Shown here piece after piece: positions 52,376 to 54,495 of a DNA stretch of 64,000 bases. The position numbers were made by a program, and so were the translations under genes. This DNA is from Streptomyces sp. NBC_01198. Its GTDB lineage: Bacteria > Actinomycetota > Actinomycetes > Streptomycetales > Streptomycetaceae. The DNA lies in assembly GCF_036010485.1 (NCBI RefSeq), contig NZ_CP108568.1, forward strand, positions 806,001 through 870,000. The letters are read 5' to 3'. Position 1 is the first letter of the stretch. Every line of letters begins with the position of its first letter. Under the pieces are notes generated by a model. The model was given only the letters and a program-made list of their open reading frames with translations, did not search any database and had not been told where the DNA came from.

Positions 52376-52772
52376 CGGATATCACGTTCGACTGGCAGGC
52401 CGCCAGCGCCAGCGCGTGGACGTCGTAGCCAGGGACGTTCCTGGACTTCCGGATCGGATCCCCGCTGTCGTCGATCTCATACGTGGCGACGGCGGCGGTA
52501 TCCACCGGAGCGGGATAGCCGGCCGCGATACACGGAATCGCCATGACCACGACGTCCGTCGCGTTCTTCGCACCTTTCGACCGGCCAGGGACGAGCTGAC
52601 CGACTATCGATCGATGATAATTCCACGTCACCCTCTTGCTCACATCCGGTCCCGCCGCACCGGGATTTTGAGCCGACGGAAGCGCCGAATCATATATCTG
52701 GCGGTACTGGCTGGGGTTGAGGAACCCTTCACCCGGTGGAATCCAGTGCCGCGGTCGCCGGCATCGGGGCAC
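52376..52772 (-). pseudogene. Unrecognised coding remnant next to the IS element
   Basis: One minus-strand frame (52772 towards 52376) reads as plausible protein: HWIPPGEGFLNPSQYRQIYD, RSIVGQLVPGRSKGAKNATD, VVVMAIPCIAAGYPAPVDTA and a later NVPGYDVHALALAACQSNV. Its codons use more A/T at third positions than the neighbours. It then runs into the 3' end of the TetR gene, where the sequence is only a shadow. On the plus strand a short frame ends at 52807 (VAGIGALGESVVNAISN). Either or both may be leftovers of genes cut during rearrangement. I do not recognise either. Confidence 0.35.
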
Positions 52773-52807
52773 TGGGCGAGAGCGTGGTCAACGCGATCTC
52801 CAACTGA

Positions 52808-53034
52808 CAGTGATGATGTTCGTGGTGACGCTACGGGTGGGCCTGACTCGCCAACTGACTGACGTCTCGACTGTCCTGTTTGGGATTTGTCGGCCCGCCG
52901 GGCGTCACCACGCACGCGGCCGGACGGGCGCTTGTGACTTCATAGGAGCTTGGTCCAGAAGCCCCGTCACTGTCTTGTCCACCCGCCCGACCGGCGCGTG
53001 CCGCCCTCGGAACGGACACGCCACAAGGACGGAC
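52808..53034 (+). ncRNA. Candidate bridge RNA region in the left end of the IS110 element
   Basis: IS110-group elements encode a structured bridge RNA in the non-coding left end. Here 227 bp upstream of the transposase contain no ORF of their own. GTGAC (52934-52938) and GTCAC (52965-52969) can close a loop that contains ATAGGAGC (52942-52949), which recurs exactly in the element's right end at 54126-54133. That is what a donor-binding loop should look like. Exact RNA ends and the target-binding loop cannot be set by eye. Confidence 0.4.
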
Positions 53035-54120
53035 ATGACCAGCATGACGCACGACGGCCCGCAGATCACCGGCGGAGTCGACACCCACGGCCTGACCCAC
53101 CACGCGGCGGTGATCGACACCATCGGCCGGCACCTGGCTGACCAGGAGTTCCCGGCCACGATCCGCGGCTACCGGGATCTGCTGGCCTGGATGCGTTCAC
53201 TCGGCGAGCTGGCCGCGGTGGGTGTGGAGGGCACCGGCGCCTACGGGGCCGAACTCGCCCGGGTGCTCACCGCCGCAGGAGTCACAGTCATCGATGTCGA
53301 CCGTCCGGACCGCAAAACCCGGCGGATGAAGGGCAAGTCCGACCCGATCGACGCCTACGCCGCCGCGACAGCCGTACTGTCCGGGCGGGCCACCGGCACC
53401 CCCAAGAGCCGGGACGGCGTGGTCGAGGCCGTGCGCGTGCTGCGGACCGCTCGCCGCAGCGCGGTCAAGGCCCGCACCCAGGCGATGAACCAGATCCGGG
53501 GCCTGCTGGTCTCGGCGCCTGCGATGCTGCGCGAGCAGGTCGCGGGAGTGGACCGGGCCACGCTGATACGCACGCTCGCCCGGCTGCGGCCCGGCGACGA
53601 CCTGTCCCGCCCGCTGACCGCCACCCGGGCAGCCCTGCGCCGCCTGGCCCGCCGCCACCAGGCGATGGACGCCGAGATCGCCGAGCTGGACGCGGAACTC
53701 GGTCCGCTGACCCGGCAGGCCGCTCCCGCACTGCTGGAACTGTTCGGCGTCGGCCCCGAAACCGCCGGCCAACTGCTGGTCTCGGCCGGGGACAACCCCG
53801 AACGTATGCGTTCGGAGGCCGCCTTCGCGCACCTGGCCGGGGTCGCACCGATCCCGGCATCCTCCGGCCGCACCCACCGCCACCGCCTCAACCGAGGCGG
53901 CGACCGGGCCGCGAACAACGCCCTGCACACCATCGTGCTCGTCCGCATGCGCTACGACGAGCGCACCCGCACCTACGTCGAACGCCGCACCAAGGAAGGC
54001 CTGTCCAAAAAGGACATCATGCGCTGCCTCAAACGATTCGTCGCCCGCGAGGTCTACCGCGCCCTGACCAGCACACCGACCGAACAAGCCACACAAACCG
54101 ACCTTGCTCCTGCCGCTTGA
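53035..54120 (+). CDS. IS110-family transposase (DEDD recombinase)
   Basis: 361 residues, apparently intact. The N-terminal RuvC-like DEDD domain starts GGVDTHGLTHHAAVIDTIG (first Asp near 15) and includes GVEGTGAYG and the KGKSDPIDAYAA motif. The C-terminal Transposase_20 domain reads LFGVGPETAGQLL, AGVAPIPASSG and LNRGGDRAANNAL, carrying the conserved catalytic Ser region. The protein recombines a circular intermediate into targets without making long duplications. The ATG at 53035 has AAGGAC upstream; the open frame before it lies in the left-end region. Confidence 0.93.
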   Translation: MTSMTHDGPQITGGVDTHGLTHHAAVIDTIGRHLADQEFPATIRGYRDLLAWMRSLGELAAVGVEGTGAYGAELARVLTAAGVTVIDVDRPDRKTRRMKGKSDPIDAYAAATAVLSGRATGTPKSRDGVVEAVRVLRTARRSAVKARTQAMNQIRGLLVSAPAMLREQVAGVDRATLIRTLARLRPGDDLSRPLTATRAALRRLARRHQAMDAEIAELDAELGPLTRQAAPALLELFGVGPETAGQLLVSAGDNPERMRSEAAFAHLAGVAPIPASSGRTHRHRLNRGGDRAANNALHTIVLVRMRYDERTRTYVERRTKEGLSKKDIMRCLKRFVAREVYRALTSTPTEQATQTDLAPAA

Positions 54121-54134
54121 CATCTATAGGAGCA

Positions 54135-54495
54135 TCCCCCAAATCGCGATCACTTCCGCACGGCAGCCACGGCCGTCCGTCCCGGTCGGACAACCGGTAC
54201 AAAGCCCCGGGCTCATGGCGACGTTCGAGTTCGCCTTGATGCGTCCGGTTCCGCCTCGCGGCGACGCTGTCGGCGGGGCCCGCCGCGCGCCCGCCAACTC
54301 GCCTTGAACCGCCCGCACTTGCCGGGCGGGGGCGGGCTGCGGCGAGCTGACCAGGAGAAGGTCAAGGTCTTGACAACGTGACAAAGGCCGGAGGAGCATC
54401 GCTTGCTGTTGCGATGACAACGTTGTCCAGCTCGGCAGGCACCCCACCCCCTCCCCCGGGGTGCCTCTCCTCCCCGTACGTCCGAAGGGCAGGAA
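54135..54495. other. Intergenic region between the IS element and GH92
   Basis: 360 bp without a convincing gene. The distal part probably predates the insertion. The 130 bp before GH92 are less GC-rich and hold two TGACAACGT motifs and the palindrome at 54416. AGGGCAGGAA precedes the GH92 start. Confidence 0.5.
54416..54427. promoter_or_regulatory. LacI-type operator upstream of GH92
   Basis: GACAACGTTGTC is a perfect 12-bp palindrome with the central CG typical of LacI-family sites. A related half-site, TGACAACGTGACAA, lies 44 bp upstream at about 54371. No LacI gene is in the window. Confidence 0.6.

Follow-up and report, generated by a model that had tools for sequence, protein, structure and literature searches.

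An IS110 element in Streptomyces whose predicted bridge RNA matches its target and donor, and a second IS110 nested in the donor guide of relatives

A recombinase gene that follows a long non-coding segment raises the question of whether that segment encodes a guide RNA and, if so, which DNA it specifies. Such a locus lies in a 64,000-nucleotide stretch of Streptomyces sp. NBC_01198 (contig NZ_CP108568.1, positions 806,001 to 870,000 of the forward strand; hereafter the window, to which all coordinates refer). A first-pass annotation, made from the letters alone, had proposed an IS110 element with a candidate bridge RNA at 52808-54140. We conclude with high confidence that the window holds an intact IS110 element whose bridge RNA, predicted to be made from a circular form, would guide the recombinase to the target N-CAAC-TGA-C-CC. 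Sequence comparison establishes the ends, the target, the RNA structure and the covariation of the guides with target and donor; the circle, its transcription and the strand exchange with its order would follow the course described for IS621. Loci and genomes used for comparison carry L and G numbers.

Element boundaries and target site

The features that define the element are as follows.
52808..54135, +: whole IS110 element, 1,328 bp (seven copies and empty sites)
52800..52807, +: CCAAC-TGA, the target letters left of the element (seen in the left flanks of the copies; TGA in pre-insertion sites)
54136..54139, +: CCCC, made up of the shared C and the target letters right of the element (right flank, empty sites)
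52808..53034, +: left end (LE), non-coding, 227 bp, ahead of the ATG at 53035
54134..54135, +: donor core letters AT, the final bases of the element

A sequence search found seven full copies in the window's own genome (7.9 Mb, one contig). In their alignment, positions 52805-54134 are common to all seven, with one single-nucleotide polymorphism in each of two copies; every left flank ends in CAAC and every right flank starts with TCC. Taken alone, the copies suggest an element spanning 52805-54134 with a single T as its core and the target CAAC-T-CC, because all seven read CAAC/TGACAG and GGAGCA/TCC (slashes mark junctions). To weigh this, the joined flanks of 11 insertions (seven from the window's genome and four from an 88% identical relative in G012) were compared with 35 genomes of the genus. 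Pre-insertion sites were readable for 4 of the 11, and in them TGA precedes CC, or CG in one: L002 (CACCTGACCCCC in G033 and G004; CAATCGACCC in the more diverged G031), L004 (CCAACTGACC in G011; ACAACTGACC in G030), L005 (CCCCAACTGACC in G004 and G005; CCCCAACTGACG in G027 and G011; alignments with L204 and L180 were uninformative) and L122 (GCTCGGCTGACCTC in G027). Because the sites contain TGA before insertion, these letters belong to the target, the element spans 52808-54135 and the target is N-CAAC-TGA-C-CC. Moreover, relatives with CGA, GGA, AGA or CAA at those letters carry matching guides. The empty sites thus rule out the placement drawn from the copies alone (T core, target CAAC-TCC), which retains a vanishingly small chance, and that only if the relatives' sites changed after divergence. 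For five joined flanks (L001, the window's own; L003, L006, L007 and L123) no alignment across the junction was found in the 35 genomes, and for L120 and L121 the homologues were too diverged to be read.

The junctions are therefore CAACTGA/CAGTG on the left and GGAGCAT/CC on the right. The left end at 52808 proposed in the first-pass annotation was exact and its estimate of about 230 bp of non-coding LE was close, whereas its right end at 54140 lay 5 bp too far. Its suggestion that other copies would fix the boundaries and a core dinucleotide held for the boundaries, once empty sites were added, but there is no shared dinucleotide: when the target is compared with the predicted circle junction (ATAGGAGCAT/CAGTG), the crossover C is the sole common base.

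In the left flank, at 52740-52807, a short frame ending SVVNAISN-stop terminates at the target TGA, 28 codons from the previous stop; it is perhaps the end of a degraded gene.

Recombinase and family membership

53035..54120, +: IS110 recombinase gene, 361 amino acids (PF01548, PF02371, NF033542; ISCro4, IS621)

The recombinase carries the DEDD N-terminal domain (PF01548, 80.2 bits, cut-off 29) and the Transposase_20 domain (PF02371, 67.1 bits, cut-off 21.3), and it scores 183.4 bits (cut-off 140) against NF033542, the NCBI model of RNA-guided IS110 transposases. Its matches among solved chains, ISCro4 and IS621, are both weak, ISCro4 being the closest by sequence (chain 9t56, E 5.9e-10); together, domains and matches bear out the original assignment to IS110. 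E65, D103 and D106 align with the E, D and D of ISCro4, and S277 with its serine, pointing to probable catalytic residues of the kind expected in the IS110 group; D16 is a candidate by motif only. As in that group, the LE (227 bp) is longer than the right end (RE; 15 bp after the stop codon) and contains the bridge RNA, with target- and donor-binding guides that are apparent from structure and covariation. The long RE containing the bridge RNA that marks the IS1111 group has no counterpart in an RE of 15 bp. On the features tested, this is an intact IS110-group insertion sequence. Because its target (GA-C) and donor (AT-C) lack the identical CT core of the IS621 subgroup, it belongs to another subgroup.

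A conserved two-loop RNA in the left end

52822..53012, +: predicted bridge RNA with two stem-loops (folding, alignment, covariance model; the transcript ends are a prediction)

Positions 52822-53006 fold better than 200/200 shuffled sequences (z -4.41); for the whole of 52805-53034 the signal is weaker (z -2.59; 2/200 shuffles as good). We then compared left ends from relatives of the recombinase (the best 80 of 111 confirmed matches from a scan of genome contigs). Missing, truncated or nested left ends were removed by list and a guide filter skipped a further 19, including L096, L101, L102 and L152, whose intact variant guides it did not recognise, as well as L011 and L150; 36 were kept. Their consensus consists of two stem-loops, one target-binding and one donor-binding, with 50 pairs, 25 of them with changes on both sides. 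The number of cells in which both partners had changed was 113, compared with 35.4 in shuffles (0/500 reach 113) and 18 to 38 when the partners were slid. The consensus begins with the stem of the target loop; the start of the aligned stretch was assumed, so a 5' stem-loop farther upstream is not judged by it.

A covariance model built from the 36 left ends, the window's included, gives the window's RNA 214.7 bits and the next match in the window 10.9. Across the 35 genus genomes, it has matches at E up to 0.001 in 13, including exactly the seven copies, and it finds RNAs outside its training set in G007 (C431), G002, G015, G022 and G005. Rfam models at gathering thresholds have no match in the window. 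The fold is thus conserved with compensatory changes, and the two outcomes that the first-pass annotation had named as fatal to a bridge RNA (a left end inside 52940-53034, or no conserved structure) did not occur.

Guides covary with target and donor

Within the two loops, we identified the following guides and their partner in the RE; the left target guide is numbered so that the shared C is position 9.
52851..52859, +: left target guide (LTG), CCAACTGAC, equal to target positions 1-9 (covariation)
52882..52884, +: right target guide (RTG), GGG, complementary to the CCC of the target (covariation)
52942..52949, +: left donor guide (LDG), ATAGGAGC, repeated at 54126-54133 (co-varying variants in L096, L102 and L152)
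54126..54133, +: left donor within the RE, ATAGGAGC
52967..52972, +: right donor guide (RDG), TCACTG, reverse complement of CAGTGA at 52808-52813 (tracks the LE in relatives)

LTG positions 2-5 equal the left flank in 67/71 insertions, and positions 2-9 do so in 63/71. The guide table had 72 rows after removal of chance pattern matches (L064, L088 on the minus strand, a second match in L101, L172 and L176) and 71 without L050, whose flank is cut. At LTG positions 2-5 these insertions hold 24 different 4-mers, of which the misaligned L125 contributes one. Nine 4-mers occur within a group of 32 close instances (at least 84% DNA identity to the window's element, its seven copies included), and 32/32 match. 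When the guides were reduced to 28 LTG types, the match at positions 2-5 was 0.969 compared with 0.412 with targets shuffled, and at positions 6-8 it was 0.94 compared with 0.72 (0/20,000 shuffles in each case). Position 1 is loose (0.51 compared with 0.28 shuffled) and position 9 varies too little for the test. The right side was tested in 54 rows, after L125 and rows whose right flank or RTG could not be read had been set aside; position 10 of the RTG agrees with the target in 50/54, and the match extends over seven letters or nearly so in L021, L045, L051 and L059. This subfamily is a natural experiment on bridge-RNA programming: nine different left target guides occur in close relatives, each matching its own site.

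In Saccharopolyspora spinosa (L045, L085-L088), several copies share the palindromic target GAACGG-A-CCGTTC, and their guides CGAACGGAC and, where readable, AACGGAT match both target halves.

The donor guides behave similarly. The repeat of the LDG loop in the right end, already seen in the first pass, changes together with the guide: both places read ATAAGAGC in L096 and ATAGGGGC in L102 and L152. The RDG, which had been missed there together with both target guides, the handshake letters and the target itself, tracks the right donor, CAGTGA occurring with (T/C)CACTG in 44 rows and CTGTGA with (T/C)CACAG in 8.

Two loci from Shewanella and Vibrio (L066 and L073; recombinases 48-49% identical) carry ATAGGAGC at the left-end guide position and in the right end (ATAGGAGCGT), which indicates that the donor guide is conserved across phyla.

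Lying directly upstream of the recombinase gene, the left-end RNA could instead be a structured element that controls expression of the recombinase and has no guiding role. A regulator would not be expected to spell its own insertion site, as the LTG does, nor to have donor guides that track the donor, and we consider this explanation very unlikely.

Differing cores and handshake letters

In IS621, both cores are CT, and once the top strands have been exchanged, two letters beside each right-hand guide base-pair with the DNA of the partner (PMC11208158). The corresponding letters here are as follows.
52885..52886, +: target-loop handshake letters AT, complementary to the donor core AT (own donor matched in 54/54 usable rows)
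52973..52974, +: donor-loop handshake letters TC, complementary to the target core GA (TT with AA targets, 3/3)

Ahead of the shared C stand GA in the target and AT in the donor; the target-loop AU complements donor AT and the donor-loop UC complements target GA. The target-loop letters match the element's own donor in all 54 usable rows, a result that 35/20,000 shuffles reach when rows are reduced to 17 types. Right ends reading GAGCTT go with target-loop AA (L093, L095 and L150 in counted rows, L125 by eye). In the donor loop, GA targets go with UC in 48 rows and AA targets (L101, L102 and L152) with UU in 3/3; the single CG target has CU, with one of two letters matched, and a tally row of GA with GC is L132, a chance match in a truncated element. 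This pattern of partner-matching letters is the one predicted by the published handshake model (PMC11208158). Because the cores differ, own-DNA pairing and handshake pairing can be told apart here at bases that do not distinguish them in IS621, whose cores are both CT, and the two letters of each right-hand guide that match the partner core amount to a natural test of handshake pairing.

A predicted circle-junction promoter and integration pathway

54117..54122, +: -35-like TTGACA over the recombinase stop TGA (54118-54120)
52812..52817, +: -10-like GATGAT, 4/6 to consensus, with a putative promoter function

The TTGACA that overlaps the stop codon, as the first-pass annotation had observed, would lie 17 nt from GATGAT across the predicted RE-LE junction with corrected ends, ATAGGAGCAT/CAGTGATG. 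This spacing fits a predicted circle promoter. Among 38 distinct junctions chosen for TTGAC, 29 have TTGACA, 7 TTGACG and 2 TTGACT, and the first GAT starts 17 nt on in 15, 20 nt on in 17 and elsewhere in 6.

By analogy with IS621, we propose that the right end of the excised element (TTGACA, ATAGGAGCAT) joins the left end (CAGTGATGAT), creating a promoter that would drive transcription of the left end into a bridge RNA roughly 190 nt long. In the target-binding loop, the target N-CAAC-TGA-C-CC would be paired through its bottom strand with LTG CCAACUGAC and through its top strand with RTG GGG; in the donor-binding loop, LDG AUAGGAGC and RDG UCACUG would pair with the circle junction ATAGGAGC-AT-C-AGTGA. 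The recombinase would then exchange strands at the single shared C, aided by pairing of AU and UC with the core of the partner DNA, to give CAACTGA/CAGTG on the left and GGAGCAT/CC on the right.

Several observations weigh against this model. The window's own copy has no empty site in the 35 genus genomes. LTG positions 2-5 are mismatched in L033, L049, L125 and L155, of which L155 may be an assembly chimera because its flank is the same as that of L163, whose LTG matches; RTG position 11 matches in just 36/54 rows. The shuffle tests do not correct for relatedness, although guides vary among closely related elements, so relatedness alone does not explain the match between guide and target. On the donor side, the guide copy in L011 is without three bases, the two copies of the LDG repeat in L071 differ, and the RDG of L150 does not match its own left end. 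GATGAT, finally, is a weak -10, and no promoter or terminator turned up when the linear region was scanned, a result that a promoter confined to the circle would also give.

Insertions at stop codons

TGA is part of the guide in most relatives, and the target TGA is kept after insertion. Enough upstream DNA was available for 46 distinct TGA-type insertions. In 23 of them, a coding-like frame (60 codons or more with high third-position GC) ends exactly at the target TGA, compared with 1 and 2 for the other frames. By the same rule, background CTGACC is a gene-like stop in 36/758 cases in the fetched loci on both strands and in 5/81 in the window, about 5%; the window's own site, with its 28 codons, fails the rule. 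These results suggest that a guide with stop-codon letters, together with a stop that is kept, is a way for an RNA-guided element to land harmlessly in a gene-dense genome. Purifying selection alone could give the same outcome if any N4-TGA-CC is entered and insertions inside genes are lost. Indeed, background CTGACC mostly lies in coding-like frame 1 (242/758) and insertions do not (1/46), as selection would give; the TGA in the guide of most relatives shows only that stops are readable sites, and we regard selection alone as the somewhat better bet.

A second IS110 nested in the donor guide

A reversed element of about 1,280 bp interrupts the left end of several relatives at a point exactly within the LDG, and two bases are present on either side of it.
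L012:130-1409, reverse: nested IS110 (inner copies also in L205-L237)
52940..52949, +: TCATAGGAGC, which holds the LDG and is the exact target of the nested IS110 in relatives

The nested element encodes an IS110 recombinase that shares 30 to 31% identity with the window's, and it has CT at both junctions. Its guides, read by eye, are LDG ACAGAGGC, RDG CAAGTCAG, LTG TGCTCCT and RTG TCATAG, and the last two spell GCTC-CT-ATGA, the reverse complement of TCATAGGAGC. In 249 genomes sampled from a larger family, 14 have matches to it at E up to 1e-40, some of them partial. Of 8 genomes selected by locus, 7 have matches at E up to 1e-30; the other, the window's own, has no match at that threshold. 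In the window's genome there are 11 exact occurrences of GCTCCTATGA, 7 of them in the element copies, and 0 of a reversed control pattern: the window's element offers the exact site, still empty.

Repeated RNA-guided homing is the best reading of these sequences. Ten of 13 left-junction types sit in the donor guide of an outer IS110, and the outer recombinases range in identity to the window's from about 38 and 53% (two stretches of L207) through 50-52% (L206, L212 and L219) up to 92%. The inner guides also change with the outer guide: where the outer site is of the ATAGGGGC type, the inner LTG is TGCCCCT and the RTG CCAATAG (L208 and L219), and where CTATCA stands on the right, the inner RTG is TGATAG (L207). 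The match is incomplete in places, with one mismatched RTG letter in L206, L209, L223 and L224, a larger mismatch in L212 and the first inner LTG letter unmatched in most nested copies. Of the 3 other junction types, L150/L222 looks rearranged, L208 is similar on just one side to the outer left end of L219, and L210 sits in another target, to which its own guides are altered to match.

Alternatively, the nested element may have entered a donor guide once and then travelled with the outer element. An identical 60-bp left junction is found in several Streptomyces, and in Streptomyces sp. I6 all 6 of 6 close outer copies found are occupied (a further 68% partial match aside), as this scenario would predict. 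The range of outer elements and the co-changing inner guides in L207, L208 and L219 oppose it; in I6, moreover, the inner copies are identical while the outer copies vary at four sites and by a one-base indel, which is weak evidence for later entry. We therefore consider single entry unlikely in general, while single entry followed by composite spread may apply to the near-identical cases.

Two loci deserve separate mention. In L150/L222 (Streptomyces sp. NWU339), the right side of the nested copy is an outer left end and its left side the surroundings of another IS110, an arrangement that suggests recombination between copies or misassembly. L011 has TTATAGCTTGG in place of TTATAGGAGCTTGG in its left end, three bases being gone exactly at the target of the nested element, and retains ATAGGAGC in its right end; the loss is possibly a scar.

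On balance, we lean towards repeated homing, in which a second IS110 lineage would use its own bridge RNA to reach donor-guide letters in the bridge-RNA genes of this and other IS110 elements, rewriting its target loop as the donor guides of its hosts change and splitting the host guide RNA: a transposon hyperparasite. Such homing may be aimed at the donor guide because that guide is among the most conserved letters of the host elements. The nested element suggests that conflicts between mobile elements extend to their guide RNAs, which become targets in their own right. Should the handshake and homing readings hold, laboratory strains would allow a direct test of each.

Comparison with known systems

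In the literature covered, including passages of PMC11208160 and PMC11187229, we found no account of stop-codon targets or of an IS110 nested in a guide gene, a weak negative given that most subscription papers and bioRxiv lay outside the scope. Within the superfamily there is a precedent for an element aimed at another mobile element, since IS4321 and IS5075, of the IS1111 group, reportedly target the terminal repeats of the Tn21 family, to go by a cited title; the nested element here is aimed instead at the donor guide inside the bridge-RNA gene of another element. IS900, another member of the IS110 family, is likewise tied to a translation signal, as it is said to target translation initiation signals (so the title of a 1997 paper by Doran). 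Its target is given as CATGNNNNNNTCTCCTT (PMC8141618). IS900 thus involves start signals, and the element described here the letters of a stop codon.

The recombinase, by which alone the two are compared, is weakly similar to ISCro4 (9t56) over two domains. The fullest comparison is with IS621 (PMC11208160, PMC11208158). Both elements have a DEDD/serine recombinase, a bridge RNA in a long left end with the target loop followed by the donor loop, the LTG/RTG/LDG/RDG layout, a -35 in the RE and a -10-like sequence in the LE, and handshake letters. They differ in that IS621 has a shared CT core, whereas here one base is common and the preceding letters differ (GA and AT); in that no conserved 5' stem-loop precedes the target loop here within the aligned stretch, whose start was assumed; and in the TGA that lies inside the target here.
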